From Sulfurovum sp. NBC37-1 (GTDB lineage: Bacteria; Campylobacterota; Campylobacteria; Campylobacterales; Sulfurovaceae), in contig NC_009663.1 in NCBI RefSeq assembly GCF_000010345.1, positions 1,426,001 to 1,490,000 of the forward strand: a DNA stretch of 64,000 nt, given 5' to 3'. The translations under genes were made by a program, and so were the position numbers. The stretch's first letter is position 1; the number at the start of each line of letters is the position of its first letter. The notes under the pieces are model-generated. The model saw only the letters and a program-made list of their open reading frames with translations, was not told where the DNA came from and ran no database searches. Positions 28,867-63,261 of the stretch are shown here, piece by piece.

Positions 28867-28893
28867 AATTAACCAACTAGTTAGTTAATTATA
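28867..28893. promoter_or_regulatory. TetR-type operator and -10 box of the BI-1/YccA gene
   Basis: The core ttaaccaactagttagttaa (28869-28888) is a near-perfect 20-bp palindrome. On the minus strand TATAAT lies at 28888-28893, immediately upstream of it. The 26-bp region matches 23 of 26 positions of the region at 50775-50800 before tetR. Confidence 0.8.
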
Positions 28894-28961
28894 TTCTTCT
28901 TTATCTTAAACTATTATTAAAGATATAAGAGAATATGATCTCAATTCTCTTTCAGATGTAT

Positions 28962-29138
28962 CTACTGAGATACTACCTCGATATTCAGCGCTTCAAACAG
29001 TGTCAGTATGTCCTCATCGAGATCTGCCTCTCCCATCACGATCCTATCGGCGTGAATGATCACAAGGATGAATCCAACCGTACTCCATATCTCTTCGGGT
29101 GTCTCTATACCCGATTCAAGAAGACCGAATGGACGATC
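28962..29138 (-). pseudogene. Short coding remnant, no family recognised
   Basis: An in-frame stretch of 58 sense codons lies between a TGA at 29139-29141 and a TAG at 28962-28964. It reads protein-like (GLLESGIETPEEIWSTVGFI, then IIHADRIVMGEADLDED, then ILTLFEALNIEVVSQ) but has no start codon in a good place. It looks like the 3' end of a degraded gene of unknown family. A short true gene with an unusual start is possible. Confidence 0.35.
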
Positions 29139-29168
29139 TCATAAGATATGATATATCATATAAAACTT

Positions 29169-29555
29169 TTAGTGGTTTGTGTCACAGCTTTTTATTTGCT
29201 CAGGATGTCTAAAGTTCTCATATAACCATACAGAGATCACATCAAGCTCTTCTTGGGTCAAAGATTTCCCTACAGGTGGCATTGTGCCAAGGTTCTTAAA
29301 TGCTTTCTCGCTGCAGTGACCCTTTTCCTCTGAAGGATTCTGTATATAGTCTTTTACAAACGCAATAAATTTCTCTTTTGAGTGTATATCTCGTTGTAAG
29401 CGTTTGGAAACAGCAGGCATAGGCGGTGCCAACAAACCGCTTTTTGGCTTCACCATTTTATGGCACACTGCACAATGTTTTGTATAAACTGCTTCACCAT
29501 TTAAAGCAAACAGAGAACTGCCAATGAGCAGTGAACCAAATATTATTTTTTTCAT
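29169..29555 (-). CDS. Secreted monohaem cytochrome c
   Basis: This 128-residue protein has a signal peptide (MKKIIFGSLLIGSSLFALN) and haem site CAVCH (Cys28, Cys31, His32). The distal Met is probably in LGTMPPVGKSLTQEELDVIS. The domain size fits a class I cytochrome c of the respiratory chain. It stands alone: 356 bp separate it from the BI-1 gene on the left and 184 bp from the next on the right. An additional Cys pair near the ends (KGHCSEK, IKSCDT) is unusual. Confidence 0.9.
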   Translation of the reverse strand: MKKIIFGSLLIGSSLFALNGEAVYTKHCAVCHKMVKPKSGLLAPPMPAVSKRLQRDIHSKEKFIAFVKDYIQNPSEEKGHCSEKAFKNLGTMPPVGKSLTQEELDVISVWLYENFRHPEQIKSCDTNH

Positions 29556-29674
29556 CTCTTTCCTTCGTCTTTATTGCAATATTTCAGTAGTTAGAGTATA
29601 TCAAAAATATCTTGATCGTGATGGAGGTAGATGTTATGCGGTTGTAGATTTATTGCCAAAACGTTTAGTTTTAC

Positions 29675-29706
29675 AAAACCTTATAAAATTATATGTTATA
29701 AGGTTT
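29675..29706. terminator. 12-bp perfect stem near the DUF1254 gene 3' end
   Basis: AAAACCTTATAA (29675-29686) pairs with TTATAAGGTTTT (29695-29706) around an 8-base loop. For the leftward DUF1254 gene ending at 29740 it gives a stem with flanking T-rich sequence. Similar ccttataa sequences recur near 33711 and 36560-36586. Confidence 0.55.
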
Positions 29707-29739
29707 TCAATTAGCAACTCCGAGGCAAATCTTGGAGTT

Positions 29740-30822
29740 TTACTTAGAAAATTCTTTTTGCATTTTAGCAGTTAAGTTGTCTGCATAAGCAAAGGTTTCA
29801 TCTTTGTTTACCGGATAATAACATCTGAGTATGCCTGTCCAGTATTTACCTCTTGGCGTGACGATAATATTTTGCAAGTCACCTTTAGGTTCACCAGATG
29901 CTAAAAAGTTCACAGTATATGAGCCATCTTTGTTGGCTACCATGTCATCGGAGTTCAGAGCATACTTCATCGTTGCGATGTAGCCGTTCTCGTTATAAAC
30001 AGTAAAAGAGAAGAAACCTTTTTTGTCATAGCGCAGATTCGGTTTTTTGAATGTATAGGAAAATCTCTCGCCTGAAGCCGTAAAGGAAGAGTAGACTGCA
30101 CTTTTCCCGGACAAGCCGCCCCAGCCGATGGCAATGACGACTTTGGCAGCTTCGGGATCTCTGCTTTTGAGCGTTCCAAATCCCCTTTTGATCACATCTT
30201 TCTGTGGATGTTTCGCAAAGTTTTCCAGGATTTTATATTTGACTTTATCGAGTGTCGAGAGGTCAAAATCGACTGCCGGGACATACGGTTCCGAAGAGTG
30301 GTAGGTGACGGAGATGTTGTCCTGCGCTTTATAGGCTTTGTCGTACATCTCTTTTTCAGGAAGCTTTCTGAGCAGTCCCGTTCTGATGATGATATAGGCG
30401 TGATGCCCTTCGGTAAGCATGGATTCGTCAAGCTTAACGGTGCCTGCTCCCGTCAATGTTGCGATCTCACTGTGGTTCGGGTCCAACACCAGAATGTTCT
30501 GATAACCCTCATACGGCTTTGTAGTGACCGTTGCTCCGCCTTTAACATCAAGAATGGTCCGGGTGTAAAGCGTGTCGGCATTCATCCTGATGACATCCTG
30601 ATTGTCGGTATTGGCAAGTTCTCTCATGGGCCGGAGGACATTGACCTTCCCGTCGGTTTTCGCCAACTCTTTCAGGTAGGCTCTTATGGAGTCCGCATGA
30701 ATGAAGTTCTCATCAGTGACGACAACACCCCTGTTCTGTGTATCTTTTGCATAAAGATGCGTAAGCCCCAGTAAGGCAAAGAGGATGATTCCTAGTAATG
30801 ATTTTTTTAGCGTATTGATTAT
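29740..30822 (-). CDS. Secreted DUF1254/DUF1214-type protein with non-standard start
   Basis: The coding frame extends upstream to a clear signal peptide, LKKSLLGIILFALLGLTHLYA, giving about 360 residues. No ATG, GTG or TTG precedes it in frame after the TAG near 30865. AGGAG sits 5-8 bases before in-frame ATA (30820-30822) and ATC (30817-30819), so one of these may start translation. An internal TTG (30666) would drop the signal peptide. The body (MNADTLYTRTILDVKGGATV, VLDPNHSEIATL, YSFFSFTVYNENGY-like C-half) matches DUF1254 then DUF1214, with unknown function. It is divergent from the AraC regulator gene. Confidence 0.7.
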   Translation of the reverse strand: MINTLKKSLLGIILFALLGLTHLYAKDTQNRGVVVTDENFIHADSIRAYLKELAKTDGKVNVLRPMRELANTDNQDVIRMNADTLYTRTILDVKGGATVTTKPYEGYQNILVLDPNHSEIATLTGAGTVKLDESMLTEGHHAYIIIRTGLLRKLPEKEMYDKAYKAQDNISVTYHSSEPYVPAVDFDLSTLDKVKYKILENFAKHPQKDVIKRGFGTLKSRDPEAAKVVIAIGWGGLSGKSAVYSSFTASGERFSYTFKKPNLRYDKKGFFSFTVYNENGYIATMKYALNSDDMVANKDGSYTVNFLASGEPKGDLQNIIVTPRGKYWTGILRCYYPVNKDETFAYADNLTAKMQKEFSK

Positions 30823-30986
30823 TACTGCTCCTGTGTTAATTTTGTACGTACAATGCTCCCACTATAGCTGAATGTTCTTAAGCCCAGAGCTTGAAAGTAT
30901 CAATTTAGAGGAGAGATTAGACCAGCATTTCATATTAAGAAAAGTAAATGCTATAATTAGCAATTAAATGGAGTAAGGAAATACTA

Positions 30987-31928
30987 TTGTATCAAGAACT
31001 GTTTTCCCCTGGTTTATCGGTAGATCTTCCCAGCCTAAATCTTGAAGTGGTACTCCACTATCTACAACAATGGAACCTGGAAGCAGAGCAGATGCAAAAA
31101 GGCCGGTTTTCTGCTACCATATCTTCTGTGCATACACCACGCATTCAGCTAAATGATACGATTTATTCACATGGCTTTATGACACGAGGTGAATTTCCTG
31201 GAAACAGCATTATGATCGGCTATGTCAAGACAAATGCCAAAGTTGTTTTTCAAAACAGGGTTCTTGAAATAAATGAGCTGGTTATATCAACAAAAGGTGA
31301 TGAAGTAGATTATATTTCAAGCGCTGAAAATGAAGTGTTTACCATTACCGTTGAAAAGAAACTTTTTATGCAGGCATTTCTTGATTATTTCGGTGAACCT
31401 TTTGAGATACATCAAGACAAAAGACGTTTTTTCATTAAACCACATAGGTTACAGTTTTTTCTTGAGAGCATCAATAGCTGGATGACTTTCCTCAAAGCCA
31501 ACCATCATTTACTTCTCTCGGAAAATAAATATGACATGGCAGAATCGGAGATACTGAGAGATATCTTCTCTTGTTTACTGATTGATCAAGTTTTGAAAGA
31601 AAGATCCGGATTCAAGGCAGAAGAAGCCCGGGATCTTCTCCATGCCAATGTCCATGAGAGATTTGACTCTGTGACACTGGCAAAAGAGTTAGGTATAAGC
31701 CAACGCCAGTTGCAACGTGTATTCAAAGAAACCTATGGTATCTCACCCAAAAGGTATCTGCTCAATCTGCGTATCAATGCGGTAAGAAAAGAGCTTCTTA
31801 TGGCTGATCCAAGAACTGCTACCATTTCCAGCATTGCCTTGAAATATGATTTTTTTGATCTCAACCATTTCTCAAAAATATATAAAACACTTTTTAACGA
31901 ACTTCCTTCCAAAACACTTCATAAATAA
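30987..31928 (+). CDS. AraC-family transcription regulator
   Basis: The 313-residue protein has an N-terminal sensor-like region (about 1-205) and a C-terminal double helix-turn-helix (about 210-310). Its HTH motifs include VTLAKELGISQRQLQRVFKETYGISPKRYLLNLRI and IALKYDFFDLNHFSKIYKTLFNELPS. The start is TTG at 30987, with TAAGGAAA before it. The size and sensor style resemble regulators of ethanolamine (EutR-like). It probably controls the divergent DUF1254 gene and the sulfatase that follows it. Confidence 0.88.
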   Translation: MYQELFSPGLSVDLPSLNLEVVLHYLQQWNLEAEQMQKGRFSATISSVHTPRIQLNDTIYSHGFMTRGEFPGNSIMIGYVKTNAKVVFQNRVLEINELVISTKGDEVDYISSAENEVFTITVEKKLFMQAFLDYFGEPFEIHQDKRRFFIKPHRLQFFLESINSWMTFLKANHHLLLSENKYDMAESEILRDIFSCLLIDQVLKERSGFKAEEARDLLHANVHERFDSVTLAKELGISQRQLQRVFKETYGISPKRYLLNLRINAVRKELLMADPRTATISSIALKYDFFDLNHFSKIYKTLFNELPSKTLHK

Positions 31929-31959
31929 CCCTAAAATCATAAAAGTGTCGGTTTTATAC

Positions 31960-32011
31960 TAATATCAATATAACTTTTTATGATATTATGTAGATAGTTA
32001 GTTAGTATCTA
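31960..32011. promoter_or_regulatory. Inverted repeats upstream of the sulfatase gene
   Basis: TAATATCA (31960-31967) and TGATATTA (31981-31988) form an 8-bp inverted repeat. A second pair, TAGATA/TATCTA (31991-31996, 32006-32011), surrounds gttagttag. Both lie within 80 bp of the sulfatase ATG and are plausible operator sites for the upstream AraC protein. This is inference from position. Confidence 0.45.
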
Positions 32012-32039
32012 CTCTGACAACTTTATTAAGGAAAAATCT

Positions 32040-33626
32040 ATGAAAAAGAAAAGTACAAAATTACTTTTAGCGTTAAGTCTTGGTTTGGCAACGGTTGTTG
32101 TGCCAACTCAGCTTATGGCTAAAAAACCGAATATCCTGGTCATCTGGGGTGATGATATCGGTTGGCAGAACGTTTCTGCTTACGGTATGGGAACCATGGG
32201 GTACACCACGCCGAACATTGACAGTATCGGTATGGAGGGTATTCGTTTTACAGACCATTATGCTCAGCCATCGTGTACAGCAGGACGTGCATCGTTCATT
32301 ACGGGACAGTACCCGATCCGCTCAGGCATGACAACGGTTGGACAACCGGGTGATCCACTTGGTCTTAAACCTGAGTCTCCCTGTCTGGCTGAAGTGATGA
32401 AAGAGCAAGGCTATACAACAGGACAGTTTGGTAAAAACCACTTGGGCGATAACAATATGCACTTGCCAACAGTACACGGTTTTGATGAGTTCTACGGAAA
32501 CCTTTATCACTTGAACACGCAAGAAGAAGCAGAGCAGCGTGACTATCAGCGTTTTGCAAAAGCATATTCCGGAAGTGTTGAAGCGTATGAGAAGAAATTT
32601 GGTACAAGAGGGGTGATCCACTCTTTTGCTACAGACAAAGATGACCCGACGGTAGACCCAAGATTTGGTAAGGTAGGAAAACAAATCATTGAAGATACCG
32701 GTCCTCTTACACAAGAGCGTATGAAAGAGTTCGATGAAAAAGAAGTGATCCCCAGAGCGTTTGACTTTATGATTAGAGCAAAAAAAGAGGGGAAACCTTT
32801 CTTCGTATGGTTAAATACTACACGCATGCACCTCTACACAAGACTGAATGACAAGTGGCGATATGCAGCTGAAAAATTTACATCAGAAGTAGATGTCCAC
32901 GGTTCTGGTATGCTTCAGCATGATCATGACATCGGTTTGGTATTGGACTTCCTGAAAAAGAACGATCTTGAAAAAGATACGATCGTATGGTACTCCACAG
33001 ACAATGGTCCGGAGCACTCTGCATGGCCACATGGTGCAACAACACCGTTCAAAAGTGAAAAGATGACTACCTGGGAAGGTGGTGTGCGAGTTATCTCTAT
33101 GATCAAATGGCCCGGACACATCAAAAAAGGGCAGATCCTCAATGGTATCCAGAGTCATATGGATATGTTTACCACGCTTGCCGCAGCAGCAGGCGTAGAC
33201 AACGTGGCTGAAAAAATGATGAAAGAGAAAAAACAATATATTGATGGTCTTAACAACCTTGATTACTGGACTGGTAAATCGAAGAAGTCTGCTCGTAACT
33301 CTATTTTCTACTACTATGAAAGTAAGTTGTCTGCGGTTCGTATGGGGCCATGGAAATTCCTCTTCTCTACGAAAAAGGATTACTACGGTAACTTAGTACC
33401 GCGTACCGTGCCAATTGTCGTGAACTTGAGAATGGATCCGTTTGAGAGTTATACAGACAAAGAATCATATGGTCACCTGCTTCAAAAAGTTTCCTGGTTG
33501 ATGAGCCCAATGGGTGAGATGATGGCTGCACACCTTAAAACACTTGCGGATTATCCGCCAGTACAGGGTGGTAAATCTTTCGATATGTCAAATGTTGTTG
33601 CTGACTTCATGAAGGGTCAGCCGTAA
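32040..33626 (+). CDS. Secreted sulfatase (type I, Cys motif)
   Basis: The 528-residue protein has a signal peptide (about 1-27, [19 protein letters not shown]...). The metal site begins at [14 protein letters not shown] (Asp38, Asp39). The formylglycine motif is CTAGR with Cys79 ([12 protein letters not shown]), the Ala variant of C-x-P/A-x-R. A later metal motif is YSTDNGPEH. The family hydrolyses sulfate esters in the periplasm after Cys is oxidised to formylglycine. No formylglycine-generating enzyme is encoded nearby. It is followed by an amidohydrolase gene. Confidence 0.9.
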
Positions 33627-33648
33627 ACACTATCAAGTAACGTTACAC

Positions 33649-33674
33649 TTTTTCGGAGACTTCTCTCCGAAAAA
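33649..33674. other. 11-bp hairpin between sulfatase and amidohydrolase
   Basis: TTTTTCGGAGA (33649-33659) and TCTCCGAAAAA (33664-33674) pair perfectly around the tetraloop CTTC. T precedes and A follows on both strands, so it lacks the usual terminator T tract. It could set transcript levels between the two genes or act as a processing site. Confidence 0.5.
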
Positions 33675-33748
33675 ACAATCATCTCATACTCTTACTGAAA
33701 ATCAAAACCTTATAAACTTGATATTGGAATTTTATACGAAGGAAAAAA

Positions 33749-35500
33749 ATGTTTAATATTAAAAGATTACTGTTGCCATTATTGGTGGCAATGGTAGGTC
33801 AATCATTGTCTGCAAATACAGCCTCTACACTTTATTATGGTGGTGATATTGTAACTATGGAGGGCAATAAACCTCAGTATGTCGAATCAATCGTTACCAA
33901 AAATGGGAAAATAGCATTTGTAGGAAAACTTGCAGAAGCACAAGAGAAGTTTAAAGATGCAGCAAAGAAAGATTTGCATGGGAAAACAATGTTCCCAGGT
34001 TTTGTTGATGCTCATGCACACTTTTATGCTTTTGGTGTACAAGCCATAGGTGCCAACCTTTTAGCCGCGCCAGATGGTAAAATAAAAAATATTGATGATA
34101 TTGTCTCAACACTTAAAGAGTGGGCAAAAGGTGATGACCTTAACCGAACTGGCTGGATCTTTGGTCTTGGGTATGATGATGCTATGCTTGAAGAAGGCAG
34201 ACACCCAACCAAAGAGGAACTTGACAAAGTTTCCAAGGAGATCCCTGTCATGGTCACACATATCTCGGGACATTTTTGTGTACTGAACTCTGCGGGATTG
34301 AAAAAAGCAGGTATCACGGAAGAGAGCAAAGACCCAAAAGGCGGGAAGATAAGACGCATAAAAGGTTCTCAAGAGCCAAATGGAGTACTCGAAGAGTTGG
34401 CAGCCATTCCTCTCATGATGAAAAGTATCTACCCCCATAGTAAAGAGAATGTCAAATACTTTCTTAAAAAGTCTGAAGAGACAGCGATGAAATATGGTAT
34501 CACTACGGCTCAGGAAGGTCGAGCTATGGGTAACCATGAAGATATGATGATGTATGCAGAGGAAGAAGGCTTCAAGATAGATGTCATCTCTTATCTGGAT
34601 TATTCAATGAAAAACAATGTGAAGGGTATGACCTGTGCAGGTATATACAAACATGAAAAAACAGGTGAAGATTACAGTAGGATGAAAACACCTTGGGTAG
34701 GTCAAACTTATACAAATGGCTATCGTGTCGGTGGTATGAAAATAACACTTGATGGTTCCCCGCAAGGTAGAACAGCTTGGAGGACAAAAGTATATATTTT
34801 ACCTCCGGATGGACAGAAACAGGGATACAAAGGATATCCTGCGTTTGATAATGACAAAGAGTTGCAGGACCTTTATGAGCTGGCATTTAAAAATAACTGG
34901 CAAGTGCTCACGCATATAAATGGTGATGCAGCTGTAGATCAGTTCATAAGAACAATGGGTAAAGCAGCGAAAAAATACGGTAACAAAGACAGAAGATCTG
35001 TCCTCATTCATGGTCAGCTTATACGAAGAGATCAAATTGCCGACTTGAAGAGACTCAAGGTTATTCCTTCTATGTACACCATGCATACTTTCTACTGGGG
35101 AGACTGGTATAAAAAGATCATAGGTGAAAAAGAAGCACAACTCATCTCTCCTGCTAAAACATTTATAGATGAAGGCTTTACACTGACTGTGCATACGGAT
35201 GCACCTGTAGCACTGCCAAACCAAATGACCATCATAGATGCTTCTGTTAACCGTACATCCCGTTCTGGTACAGTGATGGGTCCAGACGAGCGTATCACAC
35301 CATACCAGGCAATGCAGGCTATTACTATTAACTCTGCCTACCAGAGTTTTGAAGAGAACAAAAAAGGGTCTCTTAAAGTTGGAAAGATCGCTGATTTGGT
35401 AGTTTTAACAGACAACCCTCTTAAATGTGATCCTGCAAAAATCAAATATATTCAAGTGCTTGAGACAATCAAAGATGGCAAAACAATCTATAAGAAATAA
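33749..35500 (+). CDS. Secreted amidohydrolase (YtcJ/amidohydrolase 3 type)
   Basis: The 583-residue protein has a signal peptide (FNIKRLLLPLLVAMVGQSLSA) and metal ligands in FPGFVDAHAHFYAFG (HxH). Further motifs are VMVTHISGHFCVLNS, QVLTHINGDAAVDQF, SVLIHGQLIRRDQ and LTVHTDAPVALPNQ. The family hydrolyses amide or related bonds with one or two metals, and YtcJ-type members act on N-acyl substrates. It is 122 bp after the sulfatase on the same strand. The pair suggests use of sulfated, acylated external compounds, which is an inference. Confidence 0.88.
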   Translation: MFNIKRLLLPLLVAMVGQSLSANTASTLYYGGDIVTMEGNKPQYVESIVTKNGKIAFVGKLAEAQEKFKDAAKKDLHGKTMFPGFVDAHAHFYAFGVQAIGANLLAAPDGKIKNIDDIVSTLKEWAKGDDLNRTGWIFGLGYDDAMLEEGRHPTKEELDKVSKEIPVMVTHISGHFCVLNSAGLKKAGITEESKDPKGGKIRRIKGSQEPNGVLEELAAIPLMMKSIYPHSKENVKYFLKKSEETAMKYGITTAQEGRAMGNHEDMMMYAEEEGFKIDVISYLDYSMKNNVKGMTCAGIYKHEKTGEDYSRMKTPWVGQTYTNGYRVGGMKITLDGSPQGRTAWRTKVYILPPDGQKQGYKGYPAFDNDKELQDLYELAFKNNWQVLTHINGDAAVDQFIRTMGKAAKKYGNKDRRSVLIHGQLIRRDQIADLKRLKVIPSMYTMHTFYWGDWYKKIIGEKEAQLISPAKTFIDEGFTLTVHTDAPVALPNQMTIIDASVNRTSRSGTVMGPDERITPYQAMQAITINSAYQSFEENKKGSLKVGKIADLVVLTDNPLKCDPAKIKYIQVLETIKDGKTIYKK

Positions 35501-35681
35501 GAGAAGAAAAGTTCAGGCTAAAAGGACATTATCCAATGTTAATAGAAATACGAAATACTATAAAAATATATAAATTCAATCTCTTTTCGTAAATAACGAG
35601 ACATATTAGATATACTATTAATACTGAAATATCGTAATAGCAGGACAAACTGTTCTGTTAATAAATAGTTAGGTGCTAATT

Positions 35682-36464
35682 ATGCATGAACCGAGTACAA
35701 AAGAAACAGCATTTGATTGTCCGCATTGCGGTGCGTATACAACGCAATATTGGCACAATACTTATGTAAAATTCATAAGAGGTGAATCAGGGACGCCTGT
35801 AATCCCATCACCTGATTTTGAAGATAAGATTAAAGAGATAGCAGATATTGATAAAGAGCAAAAACAGAAACTAATTGAACACTTCCGAAGAATTCGATCA
35901 AAAGTGCTTTTTACAGATGAAACAACTGATTACGGTGATAAGCCGCAACTTCACAATCTATTTGTAAGCCAATGCTACAACTGTAAGAAATGGGCAGTAT
36001 GGGTAAATGAGGATATTATTTACCCTCCTAAGAAATTTGGTGTTCAACCTAATCAGGATTTGCCAGAGGCGATTTTATCGGTTGTCGAAGAAGCAAGAAG
36101 TATTCTCGATGCATCACCAAAAGGTGCGGCTGCTTTGTTGAGATTGGCCATTCAGATGCTTTGCAAGCATCTTGGAGAATCAGGTGAGAATTTAAATGAA
36201 GATATTGCAGCCCTTGTTTCTGCAGGTCTTAATCCAATAGTCCAAAAATCACTAGATGTAGTTCGCGTCATCGGAAATGAATCCGTTCACCCTGGTTCTA
36301 TAGACCTAAATGACGACAAAAATACAGCAGTTAGACTTTTTGACTTGGTAAACATTATTGCGGACCAAATGATTACTCAACCAAAGCACGTAGAAGAGTT
36401 ATACGAAAAATTGCCTGAATCAAAAAGAAAGGCCATAGATAGGCGTGATAGAAAAGGCACCTAA
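35682..36464 (+). CDS. DUF4145-domain zinc-ribbon protein, cassette-borne
   Basis: From the ATG at 35682 the product is 260 residues (a GTG at 35673 would add three). A split zinc ribbon has CPHC (FDCPHCGAYT) and CYNC (SQCYNCKKWAVW). The C-terminal half (about 130-245) is helical with AILSVVEEARSILDASPKGA, AALLRLAIQMLCKHLGE and IGNESVHPGSID, typical of DUF4145. Some DUF4145 proteins occur as parts of restriction or phage-defence genes. The exact function here is unknown. It is the only gene of the cassette and its TAA lies within the attC site. Confidence 0.82.
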   Translation: MHEPSTKETAFDCPHCGAYTTQYWHNTYVKFIRGESGTPVIPSPDFEDKIKEIADIDKEQKQKLIEHFRRIRSKVLFTDETTDYGDKPQLHNLFVSQCYNCKKWAVWVNEDIIYPPKKFGVQPNQDLPEAILSVVEEARSILDASPKGAAALLRLAIQMLCKHLGESGENLNEDIAALVSAGLNPIVQKSLDVVRVIGNESVHPGSIDLNDDKNTAVRLFDLVNIIADQMITQPKHVEELYEKLPESKRKAIDRRDRKGT

Positions 36465-36527
36465 CAATCGGCTCAACGCAGACTGTCAACTCCGCTGCAC
36501 TCTGTTGCCAGCCGGTTAGCCGAGGCG
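36459..36527 (+). other. attC recombination site of the gene cassette
   Basis: R'' is ACCTAAC (36459-36465). L'' CGGCTCAAC (36470-36478) faces L' GTTAGCCG (36515-36522); the two are complementary apart from one extra C, the extrahelical base typical of attC bottom-strand hairpins. The site ends at GCG with the cleavage G at 36527. The R' partner GTTAGGT now lies at 35668-35674 because of insertion. Confidence 0.75.
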
Positions 36528-36559
36528 TTACGAACTTCTAATTTTCTCCAAATTCAAAA

Positions 36560-36586
36560 CCTTATAATCTAATATATTTTATAAGG
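36560..36586. repeat. ccttataa inverted repeat
   Basis: CCTTATAA (36560-36567) and TTATAAGG (36579-36586) form an 8-bp stem with an 11-base loop. The preceding ttcaaaa resembles the same element at 29675 and near 33708. The rest of 36528-36661 contains no gene. Confidence 0.5.
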
Positions 36587-36661
36587 AAAAGTAAGTTGTC
36601 TACATAGGATCAGAGAAATATTATTATCAAAGAAAATAACCGTACAAACTAAAGGGAACCT

Positions 36662-37372
36662 CTAAAGCTGCAAATAGGCTTCATAGAAAAAGTAGAGGCC
36701 AAAACCCAGCAGAAGCAGCGCAAATCCTTTGTTGATCCAGTCGGATATCTTTGCCATTGTACTGCTCGAAGTGATACTCTGAGCAAAGCCTACAGAGACA
36801 CCGGCGATCAGCAGCAACAGGGAGTGCCCCAGCGCAAAAGTAAGAATGAGCCCGTAGGCCTGCAGATACCCGCTGCTTCCAGCCAAAGACATAATAGCAA
36901 AAAGCGGTGCAGAGGCACAGGGTGTACTGACAAGTCCGAAGATCAAACCGATGAGAAAACCGCCAAAAAGACGGTAGTGTATCAGCCGGTGTATGATGGC
37001 CGATTTGTCTACCTCTCCAAGCATACCAAACGCATAGAGCGCGATAAGGATGCTCACTATCCCTGCGACCAGGTAGGCCCACATCGGCGCTACGGAGAAG
37101 AAACCGCCGAACTTGGCGACTATGAAGCCCAAAATGGAGAAACTCAGTGCCACACCCAATGCAAAGAGTGTGGTGAAAAGGTAAGTGTAGAGCACCTTTT
37201 TTCTGCCCTCAAGGTCTTTGTTCAGTGCTACGGCACTGCCCACAAGTAGCGGGACGGCCACCAGTGAACAGGGAGCTGCTGCGGTGATGCTGCCTGAAAG
37301 GAAAGCACCCGCATAGGCAAGCAGAGAGTTCGACTCTAGAAGATGGGTAATGAAGGGCTGCAGTTCACCCAT
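36662..37372 (-). CDS. ccdA: CcdA-type membrane thiol transporter
   Basis: This 236-residue protein has six membrane segments. Conserved Cys residues lie in TAAAPCSLVAVPL (Cys35) and STPCASAPLFAI (near 150), the reductant-relay pair of CcdA/DsbD. The family passes electrons from cytoplasmic thioredoxin to periplasmic thiols. It is last in the operon with the permease, the redox-active disulfide protein and the secreted FmdE-domain protein, so it probably keeps those Cys groups reduced. Confidence 0.88.
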   Translation of the reverse strand: MGELQPFITHLLESNSLLAYAGAFLSGSITAAAPCSLVAVPLLVGSAVALNKDLEGRKKVLYTYLFTTLFALGVALSFSILGFIVAKFGGFFSVAPMWAYLVAGIVSILIALYAFGMLGEVDKSAIIHRLIHYRLFGGFLIGLIFGLVSTPCASAPLFAIMSLAGSSGYLQAYGLILTFALGHSLLLLIAGVSVGFAQSITSSSTMAKISDWINKGFALLLLGFGLYFFYEAYLQL

Positions 37373-37374
37373 GT

Positions 37375-38094
37375 TTACCTGCTGACATTTTTATTGATGA
37401 CATCACTTCGCGAACCGATATCGTCTATCTTGAATTCGTACTGATAGTCCTTCAGTTTCGTGATCTTCAAAAGCTTCCCTGGGTCAGTGTTGAGCATATA
37501 TGTCATTGCTTCAAAAGCAAGTGCTTCCACTTCATCGATATCTTTGGGAGTGATCTTTTCACCCTTTTTCTGCTTTGTTCTGATCTCTTTTTCTTTGTTC
37601 TTGAGCGCTTTAATGAAACCCGTATCGGCAAGCTCTACCTTGTAAGTCTCACCCGTAGAGATCTTCTGTACGATGAAACTGCCTCCAAGAGAATTGTCCA
37701 GCGAGAGTGTCCTGTGGTTGATACGTGCACCGCTCATCAGGCCCGAAGTATCGACCAGGCAGGGACTGTTCTTTGCTACCACACGCAGATCTGTCCTGTC
37801 TATGACGCCGTCAGCAAAAAGCTTTGGCAGAGTGTTGGAAAGTTCCACGTACGCCAGTACCAGCCCGTCGCAGAGATGCCCGTGTGCGCGTGCAAGGGTC
37901 TTGATGTCGAGCTTCTTTGGGTAGAGGTTGTAGCGTCCAAGTGCACCGTCAGTGTCTTTGACCAGCACCGGTTTTGCATTGGGTGCATTTTTGACAGACT
38001 TTTCGTAAAAAGTGTCATCGATGTTCAAATGTGCCGCTTCACCTGCCCATGTAGCTACTCCGGCAAGTGTCAGAAACAGTGCCCTTTTAAGCAT
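37375..38094 (-). CDS. Secreted FmdE-domain protein
   Basis: The 239-residue protein has a signal peptide (LKRALFLTLAGVATWAGEA). The FmdE-type domain (about 65-160) has AHGHLCDGLVLAYVEL (His71, His73, Cys75, Asp76) and NSPCLVDTSGLM as metal-binding Cys/His motifs. FmdE domains usually occur with molybdo-enzymes or as metal-binding modules in the cytoplasm, so export is unusual. Its start overlaps the preceding redox protein gene by eight bases. A lysine-rich helix (KNKEKEIRTKQKKGEK) follows the domain. The substrate is unknown; trivalent arsenic or another soft metal is a candidate. Confidence 0.75.
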   Translation of the reverse strand: MLKRALFLTLAGVATWAGEAAHLNIDDTFYEKSVKNAPNAKPVLVKDTDGALGRYNLYPKKLDIKTLARAHGHLCDGLVLAYVELSNTLPKLFADGVIDRTDLRVVAKNSPCLVDTSGLMSGARINHRTLSLDNSLGGSFIVQKISTGETYKVELADTGFIKALKNKEKEIRTKQKKGEKITPKDIDEVEALAFEAMTYMLNTDPGKLLKITKLKDYQYEFKIDDIGSRSDVINKNVSR

Positions 38095-38335
38095 TCTTTT
38101 GTGCTTCTTCTATGAGCTTTACCACTTCATCGACACTCAACAGTTTTCCCGTGGACTTCACTTCACCATCGATGACAAGCCCCGGTGTACTGACCACATT
38201 GTACTTCATGATCTCCATGATATCATCTACTTTTTCCACCTGATGGAAACCACCCACTTTGGCAAGCGCTTCCTGAACGACTTTCTCAAGTGCCACACAT
38301 TTGGCACATCCTGTTCCGAGTATTTCTATTTTCAT
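38087..38335 (-). CDS. Redox-active disulfide protein (thioredoxin_3)
   Basis: The 82-residue cytoplasmic protein has active site CAKC (Cys10, Cys13) in EILGTGCAKCVALEK and a cis-Pro strand STPGLVIDGE. This family (MTH895-like) often follows ArsP/YraQ-type permease genes, as here. It probably reduces or shuttles electrons to the permease or its cargo. It lies 11 bp after the permease gene and overlaps the FmdE gene. Confidence 0.9.
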   Translation of the reverse strand: MKIEILGTGCAKCVALEKVVQEALAKVGGFHQVEKVDDIMEIMKYNVVSTPGLVIDGEVKSTGKLLSVDEVVKLIEEAQKNA

Positions 38336-38346
38336 TGTTTTGCTCC

Positions 38347-39294
38347 TTAGTTTAAAATAAAATTGAAAAGATAGCCGATAGCGATAATACCGACCCCTAC
38401 TATACCAAAAAAGATCGCGATCAGTTTCGTATGAAGGATCTTTTTGAGGATCATCGCTTCAGGCAGACTCAGTGCGGTAATGGACATCATAAAGCTCAGC
38501 GCCGTTCCAAGCAGCATTCCCTTGTTCGTCAGTACTTCTACAAGCGGCATCACACCCGCAGCGTTGGAGTACATCGGGATACCCAGGATCGTCGCTAACG
38601 GTACACCGTACCAGTTGTCACCGCCTGCATATTTGGCAATGAAGTCTGCCGGAACATAGCCATGGATGAAGGCACCGACACCGACACCGATGAGTACATA
38701 GAGCCAGATCTTTTTAACGATGTCCCAGGTATAGTCCCACGCTTCCTGGGCCCGCTGTTTCGCGGTCAGTTTTATCTCGACCTCTCCCAGTTCACCTTCC
38801 ATCGGCGTGACAGGAATAAGAATATATTTTTCCATCCCCAGCTTCCCGATGACATAGCCACCCACTATCGCGACAAAGAGCCCGAAACCGATGTAGATCG
38901 CCGTGATCTTCCAGCCAAAGAGTGTAAAGAGCATCGCTATGGCGATCTCGTTGTTCATCGGTGCAGAGATCAGGTAGGAAAAGGTCACCCCCAGCGGGAT
39001 GCGTGCCTGAATGAAACCCAGAAAGAGCGGAATGGCAGAACAGGAACAGAACGGAGTGATGATCCCGAACAGTGCCGCGAGCACGTTACCGTAGAGCTCG
39101 GACTTGCCCTGTAGGTGTGCCCGGACATACTCCGTATTGAAGTGCGTCCGCAGATAGGAGACAATAAAGATGATGACGACCAGCAAAAAGAGGATCTTTA
39201 CCGTATCGTAGATAAAAAAATTGACCGTGTCGTTGACCCTTCCGGTCAGGCCGAGAAGGTCAACAGTCAAATGGTCTACTGTTTCTTTCCACAT
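38347..39294 (-). CDS. ArsP/YraQ-type permease (COG0701)
   Basis: The 315-residue protein has eight predicted membrane segments in two repeats. The first repeat carries GIITPFCSCSAIPLFLGFI, a Cys pair characteristic of the ArsP-like permeases that export trivalent organoarsenicals. The second repeat has GIPMYSNAAGVMPLVEVL. The promoter at 39362-39401 has the same operator as the ars locus, so its expression is probably controlled by ArsR. It is the first gene of a four-gene unit. Confidence 0.85.
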   Translation of the reverse strand: MWKETVDHLTVDLLGLTGRVNDTVNFFIYDTVKILFLLVVIIFIVSYLRTHFNTEYVRAHLQGKSELYGNVLAALFGIITPFCSCSAIPLFLGFIQARIPLGVTFSYLISAPMNNEIAIAMLFTLFGWKITAIYIGFGLFVAIVGGYVIGKLGMEKYILIPVTPMEGELGEVEIKLTAKQRAQEAWDYTWDIVKKIWLYVLIGVGVGAFIHGYVPADFIAKYAGGDNWYGVPLATILGIPMYSNAAGVMPLVEVLTNKGMLLGTALSFMMSITALSLPEAMILKKILHTKLIAIFFGIVGVGIIAIGYLFNFILN

Positions 39295-61905: not shown

Positions 61906-61980
61906 TGGGGTATCGCCAAGCGGTAAGGCACCAGTTTTTGGTACTGGCATTCGGGGGTTCGAATCCCTCTACCCCATCCA
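61906..61980 (+). tRNA. tRNA-Gln (anticodon TTG)
   Basis: The acceptor arms TGGGGTA and TACCCCA pair, the anticodon stem CCAGT/ACTGG encloses TTTTGGT with anticodon TTG, and GGTTCGAATCC forms the T arm. The genome encodes the terminal CCA. The D loop contains AAGCGGTAAGG. All parts are in order and the promoter is directly upstream. Confidence 0.95.
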
Positions 61981-62038
61981 TAAGAAGATTTAAGTTTGAA
62001 TATATTTATTCAAGCTATAATCTCACTCTCATAACTGT

Positions 62039-62115
<77 letters not shown>

Positions 62116-62160: not shown

Positions 62161-63261
62161 TTAAACTTTTCTGATGTCACCACGAGTGTCACCACGCATG
62201 TCACCATCAAAAAATGGATTAAATGAACTCCTTATTTTCAAATGTTCACCTTTGATAAATCGTGCATAATTTTCAAGTATCATTTTAGAGTTGGTATGCC
62301 CTACTATCTGTGCAATTTCCAATACACTCAATTCACCTGATTTTAACATCGCTGTAATGAACGTATGTCTGGTATTGTAGATTTTCCTATATGGTATCTC
62401 CAGATCAGACAAAAGTTTTGCCCACACTCCGTAAGGTTTTTTACCCCGAATTGTATCCACACTGTAAAGATGCCTTCCTTCATTGGAAAAAAGGTAGACA
62501 CTCTTTAGCTTCCTTGCAGTTTGTACCTGTTCATTCAAATAAGGTCTAAGCACATCAAAAAGCGGTACTTCACGTATGCTTTTAACCGTTTTGGGTGTGG
62601 AAATCACTCCTCTGGATATGCTGCGCTTGACAGTGATCCTTTTATCGTAAATATCCGAAAGCTGCAATCCAAGAATTTCTCCTGATCTCATACCCGTATA
62701 AAACCCGATTGCCAGAAAGTTCTTCAATGGTCTGGGTGCATGTTCCAAGATGGTTTGCACTTCTTGTGAGGTAAAAGGTATGACCTCTTCACTCTCTTTA
62801 CCGTTTTTGACAACTTTTATATGGACAAATGGATTTTTGGAAAGTATCTCTTCTTCCAGGGCGACCTGGAAGATACCCTTGCAATCGACCACATAACTTT
62901 TCAGTGTTTTGGTTGCAACATCAAAGCTGCTAAGCCAGGCTCTAAGTTCTGATACCTTGATCTCTCTTATGTCACGTTTGTTAAAGAACTCGACTATCTT
63001 CTCTACCCTGCGGTGAATCTCCCAATAGGTTTTGAGATTTTCTTTTTTCAGCAGATATAGCCGCGCATATTTCTCGATAGGCTCTTTTTCTTCTTTTTGA
63101 GCTTTTTGTGCCAGATGTTCTTCAAGTGCAGGAAGCAGTTCTCTAATGATCGTCTTCCTGTTCTTTGGTGTATCTTTCAGCCCTGTGCTCTTTTGTTTCC
63201 AGCCTTCATCGGTTTTGTATTTGACCTGCAAAATTCCTTTGCGTGAATAGATGCTTGCCAT
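62161..63261 (-). CDS. Tyrosine recombinase / phage-type integrase
   Basis: The 366-residue protein has an Arm-DNA-binding-like N-terminus, a core-binding SAM-like domain (about 60-150) and a catalytic domain (about 165-345). Catalytic residues are in GFYTGMRSGEILGL (Arg), NTRHTFITAMLK (His-x-x-Arg equivalent: R-H), IVGHTNSKMILENYARF (His and Tyr). It should integrate and excise an element at the neighbouring tRNA. It points toward the initiator tRNA, and its partner genes lie to the right. Confidence 0.92.
   Translation of the reverse strand: MASIYSRKGILQVKYKTDEGWKQKSTGLKDTPKNRKTIIRELLPALEEHLAQKAQKEEKEPIEKYARLYLLKKENLKTYWEIHRRVEKIVEFFNKRDIREIKVSELRAWLSSFDVATKTLKSYVVDCKGIFQVALEEEILSKNPFVHIKVVKNGKESEEVIPFTSQEVQTILEHAPRPLKNFLAIGFYTGMRSGEILGLQLSDIYDKRITVKRSISRGVISTPKTVKSIREVPLFDVLRPYLNEQVQTARKLKSVYLFSNEGRHLYSVDTIRGKKPYGVWAKLLSDLEIPYRKIYNTRHTFITAMLKSGELSVLEIAQIVGHTNSKMILENYARFIKGEHLKIRSSFNPFFDGDMRGDTRGDIRKV

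Follow-up and report, generated by a model that had tools for sequence, protein, structure and literature searches.

The 64,000-nucleotide window analyzed here, from Sulfurovum sp. NBC37-1, very probably carries a foreign PD-T7-4-like gene cassette that was captured at an integron attachment site (attI) whose integrase gene (intI) is gone, and platforms of the same kind are repeated across this genome and the genus. The evidence comprises the anatomy of the cassette, the homology of its flank to attI regions, the absence of intI, an intI remnant elsewhere and other loaded attI sites, together with different cassettes at an orthologous solo attI and a 7.4-kb stretch that a relative does not have.

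The gene cassette and its attC site

The integrated cassette spans 35669–36527 on the forward strand, as delimited by its core boundaries and box complementarity. The left edge is G35668|TTAGGT, and the right edge is formed by ACCTAAC (36459–36465) and G36527|TTACGA. R'' (ACCTAAC) and the left junction GTTAGGT are reverse complements at all seven bases (7/7), so that a circular cassette would restore a perfect core. L'' (TCGGCTCAAC) and L' (GTTAGCCGA) are complementary save for one extra C, and the TAA stop codon of the cassette open reading frame (ORF) falls inside R''. An earlier note on this DNA had described these edges, the paired boxes, the stop codon within R'' and the core-restoring circle, all of which are present in the sequence; its proposal that an IntI-type integrase integrated the cassette also holds.

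The attC site (36459–36533, forward strand) is GC-rich and departs from the genus's own attC type. The bottom strand of 36466–36528 folds into the expected attC hairpin with extrahelical or bulged bases (−12.0 kcal/mol), as the earlier note had anticipated, although a 101-nt fold at the site was not stabler than shuffled sequences (z −0.46); because the folding energy is not significant, the attC call rests on box symmetry. A strict search for R and L boxes with a hairpin recovered the window attC and made one call in 83 kb of background. The detector was loosened for native sites, and some of the loose calls outside units are false. The window site was matched neither in an Rfam search nor, with E values as high as 10 allowed, by a covariance model built from 23 native attC sites. 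It is therefore not of the native type, which points to a foreign cassette from another lineage; a search of plasmids for the source of this attC gave no match. The site thus combines complementary R and L boxes, an extrahelical base, a gene just upstream and precise G|TT edges, as in an integron cassette, and the cassette stands alone, its attC unaccompanied by intI as in a CALIN or single-attC element.

The cassette gene (35682–36464, forward strand) encodes a protein of 260 amino acids (MHEP...). Its ATG at 35682 lies 13 bp inside the cassette, where AGGTG from the core is a plausible ribosome-binding site. The protein matches Pfam PF13643 (DUF4145) with an E value of 4.4e-16, which confirms the earlier description of a DUF4145 gene, and has two N-terminal CxxC motifs that would fit the zinc ribbon named there. 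DUF4145 is a HEPN-clan family tied to conflict systems (PMC3710099). The PADLOC profile for PD-T7-4 is matched with an E value of 1.9e-77, residues 86–258 corresponding to positions 37–209 of 211, and a solved DUF4145 protein (PDB 9y9c) scored 171 bits. The gene is thus probably an anti-phage defense gene. Most of the PD-T7-4 profile is covered, but the window protein differs in its extended N-terminal part with the two CxxC motifs and in being cassette-borne, and its activity is a prediction. The closest relatives found were encoded in metagenome-assembled genomes of Sedimentisphaerales (74% identity) and Nitrospirota (69%), and a scan around these two genes detected no attC.

The flanking attI region and its copies elsewhere

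A BLAST search with 34400–37300 against 78 genomes of the genus showed that the noncoding stretch 35509–35674 recurs at C1:1252720 (93%) and C1:2424338 (77%) of the same genome and in ~30 other genomes. The copies in congeners are 74–84% identical, and their matches stop at the cassette junction; the attI copies finish at AATAAATAG|TT, and the cassettes beyond that point are unrelated. The flank aligns at 79.5% over 88 bp with the attI of genome G023 and at 76% over 80 bp with that of G045, in both of which attI lies between a divergent, intact intI and the first cassette, 190–270 bp from intI. Longer copies that stand without an integrase follow the intI–attI intergenic sequence almost to the intI start codon. 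We therefore annotate 35509–35668 (forward strand) as an attI region, that is, a former intI–attI intergenic region with a truncated left end, and the long homology together with the lack of intI defines the site as a solo attI (an attI and promoter block without an integrase). Relative to a complete integron, the attI is present and an adjacent intI is absent.

The attI core, GGACAAACTGTTCTGTTAATAAATAG|TT (35643–35670, forward strand), places the crossover after G35668. When searched as GGACAnnnTGTTCnnnnAATAAATAG|TT with up to three mismatches, it was found at ~110 sites in 45 of the 78 genomes, seven of them in Sulfurovum sp. NBC37-1, against a handful of hits for the reversed pattern. Perfect matches numbered ~34, of which four were within 1 kb of intI, and with up to two mismatches the core was present in 7 of the 11 genera of the family. 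Just upstream lies AGACATATTAGATATACTATTAATACTGAAATATCGTAATA (35599–35639, forward strand), a candidate cassette promoter (Pc). This block is conserved in the attI copies although it matches the sigma-70 consensus weakly, and because of that poor match we infer its promoter function rather than assert it. On the other side of the cassette, 36528–36559 (forward strand; TTACGAACTTCTAATTTTCTCC...) forms the right half of the attI unit, and homologous sequence starts as |TTA[CT]... after the last attC elsewhere. The earlier note had taken the target for a non-integron secondary site and the cassette for a lone one outside any integron. Neither reading holds up: the ~160-bp left flank is the genus's intI–attI intergenic region, it recurs both linked to intI and solo in many genomes, and a recurring module makes up the right flank.

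Further attC sites, which the earlier note had suggested looking for in the rest of the genome, were found at its attI units at 1252, 1492 and 2424 kb. There, two or three cassettes with native attC sites of a homogeneous type come after attI, and each unit finishes in a palindrome module. At C1:1190660, the attI holds one cassette. Its ortholog in the close relative G002 (C1:1148295), with flanks that are 90–92% identical, contains different cassettes, bounded in both genomes by AATAAATAG| and |TTACTsTATT. Different cassettes between common edges at orthologous solo attI sites show that such sites are reloaded. The comparison indicates that, after the species split, cassettes were exchanged at an attI without an integrase, either through IntI acting in trans or through an intI since lost. 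With at least seven docking sites scattered through this chromosome, the data indicate that such sites can increase in number and take up new cassettes independently of the recombinase gene.

The attI sites also vary in other ways. Those at L121 13945, L122 3688, L117 3531 (minus strand) and L066 begin with an ORF-less hairpin cassette (GTTGCACGC...GCGTGCAACGGGCGYGCTGATCACTGAACG...). At L119 (G001:C1:971–975 kb), two solo attI sites lie 3.6 kb apart, each after one and the same ~330-bp sequence, which does not resemble other attI regions, in what looks like a tandem duplication of an attI-bearing unit. The repeat TTCTCGTTCCCACGCTNAGCGTGGGAACGAGAAA is inserted at or near attI or attC sites in L116, L127 and L132, in L116 where intI is missing; perhaps it is a REP-like element that broke integrons.

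The 7.4-kb segment and palindromic ends

Alignment to G002 revealed that a 7.4-kb segment of the window (29161–36587) is absent from this close relative. In order, the segment contains a small c-type cytochrome-like ORF, a DUF1254/1214 gene, an AraC regulator, a sulfatase, an amidohydrolase and the solo-attI unit, the gene contents being those recognized with Pfam. G002 matches window positions 28868–29160 (97%) and 36588–38349 (92.7%) with 7 bp between them. As it joins the 29160 side to the 36588 side, 29161–36587 is either extra here or was lost in G002. The right edge of the gap is a palindrome, and no clear target-site duplication was seen at the G002 empty site. The earlier note had suggested looking for an empty locus in close relatives, but the uninterrupted junction 35668|36528 was found in none of the 78 genomes, which yielded a single hit with three mismatches, and what G002 does not have is the whole segment rather than the cassette alone. 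The cassette may therefore have arrived inside a loaded unit. Near the left end of the segment, 29572–29704 (minus strand) carries an inverted copy of the promoter-like block (29572–29612) and a palindrome (29678–29704), recognized from repeats I1, D2 and I22 and the sequence itself; within 29161–29707, the small c-type cytochrome-like ORF reads leftward from the reversed block, beside the palindrome.

These data bear on the strongest alternative, in which the 7.4-kb composite entered in one piece, attI and cassette included, without any cassette ever inserting in this lineage. We consider this nearly an even prospect. In its favor, the block is absent from G002, the edges of the gap are nearly precise and the right edge falls at a palindrome; the foreign attC speaks for it as well. 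However, acquisition as a block is compatible with the solo-attI reading, and the 93% attI copy of this genome carries native cassettes, which makes it plausible that loading occurred within the genus.

The palindrome CCTTATAATCTAATATATTTTATAAGG (36560–36586) is 27 bp long and forms the right end of both the unit and the 7.4-kb insert, G002 homology resuming at 36588. The genome has ten such palindromes, which are imperfect, and a longer right-end module is present in 36 of the 78 genomes, often in at least ten copies. Many solo attI units start near a palindrome like AAAACCTTATAAAGTTATATATTTTATAAGGTTTT and finish with CCTTATAATCTAACATATTTTATAAGG plus ~95 bp. Repeated short ends of the sort that mark MITEs and integron mobilization units are thus present, except that the window unit, truncated on its left, has the right palindrome and is missing the usual left one. 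A search for palindromes near intI-bearing loci, which would have suggested a mobile autonomous parent, found none. Taken together, the attI sites might themselves be mobile, as palindrome-bounded, integrase-less attI–promoter modules ('satellite integrons') that spread across chromosomes in the genus and are loaded by IntI in trans, foreign defense genes included; we put this forward tentatively, as a proposal that falls a little short of even odds.

A somewhat less probable alternative holds that the palindrome units serve another recombinase or transposase as modules for exchanging genes, attI being passive cargo in some of them. Two units of the same genome, G000:C1:231060–232330 (L070) and 482820–484600 (L071), have the palindromic ends of attI units but other genes and no attI, and orthologous sites in relatives have different cargo, both of which favor this view. 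Against it, the cargo of attI-bearing units has attC sites and edges at attI, which indicates that IntI acted at those units. At the first of the two sites, the cargo differs in the orthologous sites of G002, G023 and G045; at the second, the G002 ortholog differs and contains an AAA-ATPase and an IS element. Palindrome-bounded variable loci thus look like a wider phenomenon in the genus.

To the right of the window (L072 4262–6160; genome 1492–1494 kb), another attI unit contains two cassettes. Its final attC abuts G|TTATTCGCTGTAGCGACG within the right-end module, a junction that could have arisen by IntI recombining at a second G|TT site there, with loss of the first palindrome. The window also contains genes for tRNA-Gln and tRNA-Met and, after them, an ORF resembling a tyrosine integrase (61906–62115 and 62503–63033), and a tRNA-like 3' end recurs ~6.3 kb into the right flank of the L072 unit. 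This arrangement suggests that an integrated element extends beyond the end of the window.

The missing integrase and comparison with known systems

The genome is a single contig of 2.56 Mb and is 100% complete. No intI lies near the cassette, and a genome-wide search with the IntI model, of the kind suggested in the earlier note, found none; the best matches were Xer-like proteins with ~30% identity to IntI, which scored 60 bits against a cut-off of 265. Among the 78 congeneric genomes, 32 had IntI matches, 20 of them above the cut-off. Remnants of intI are preserved elsewhere. At C1:1051468, attI is fused to the final codons of intI (...EMNKGRVASPLD); the attI at 690 kb neighbors rpiB, a position at which G019 and G045 carry an intact intI; and in G002, a 39-aa intI tail that is 95% identical to the G023 IntI adjoins attI. 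The 690-kb and 1051-kb loci, and the 1346-kb locus of G002, are clearly relics of ordinary integrons in which intI decayed. The decayed integrons and the G002 tail together indicate that the lineage once had IntI and lost it.

These relics give some weight to simple decay, according to which an ordinary intI–attI–array integron lost intI and its other cassettes by deletion in place, and the truncated left end of the window unit fits as well. We nevertheless regard this as improbable: no intI remnant was seen within the window, many genomes and several further loci show the intI-less, palindrome-ended layout, palindromes are absent from intact intI loci, and G002 is without the whole 7.4-kb segment. 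The reading at greatest odds with the data, and almost certainly wrong, is off-target insertion, in which IntI used a chance G|TT secondary (attG-like) site; such insertions are known (Loot et al. 2024, as cited in PMC12444791 and PMC11023631), and the G|TT junction, the single cassette and the want of a nearby intI are in keeping with one, but ~160 bp of the left flank shows homology to attI regions, the sequence on the right side is likewise found repeatedly, and many genomes share the attI core precisely up to the junction. Secondary-site insertion, which presupposes a target unrelated to attI, was accordingly rejected on flank homology.

On the preferred reading, capture at a solo attI, the genus's own IntI would have acted in trans, on the site itself or before the module arrived. 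Recombination between the folded bottom strand of attC and the double-stranded attI would have taken place after G35668. The upstream block would read into the cassette and probably drive its expression, and later loss of intI from the genome would have frozen the cassette in place. Multi-copy solo attI sites would constitute a further route to CALINs and would equip a cell with several expressed docking sites rather than a single one; one such docking site here holds the presumed phage-defense gene.

CALINs occur roughly as often as integrons and have been attributed to off-target insertion, intI loss and rearrangement (PMC8618304, PMC9024848). The window site resembles CALINs and single-attC elements as defined by IntegronFinder (PMC9024848) in having an attC cassette with no intI nearby or in the genome, but it differs in its recognizable attI and promoter block, itself repeated in the genome, and this platform sets it apart from such elements as usually pictured. 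IntegronFinder does not search for attI outside class 1 (PMC9024848), so solo attI sites would be filed as CALINs or missed. With attG secondary-site insertion (Loot et al. 2024), the site shares a cassette away from an intI-bearing platform, whereas its target is a conserved attI with long homology and not a degenerate genomic site. Integron mobilization units and MITE-flanked class 1 integrons likewise carry integron parts between short palindromic repeated ends and may be non-autonomous; the unit here, by contrast, has attI without intI, its ends are imperfect 27-bp palindromes, and neither a transposase nor a target duplication turned up. Decayed sedentary chromosomal integrons of Xanthomonas, with intI lost and cassettes frozen (PMC12444791), have counterparts in the 690-kb and 1051-kb loci, but intI in Xanthomonas belongs to one platform, at ilvD (PMC12444791), compared with at least seven attI sites in this one genome. 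A search of open-access papers for orphan or multiple attI sites returned nothing on point, and dispersed, palindrome-bounded solo attI sites appear to be undescribed. The cassette, attI, intI loss and defense cargo each have precedents; the apparent novelty is that attI forms a repeated, integrase-less unit, present several times per genome, in some cases palindrome-bounded, and loaded with native and foreign cassettes.
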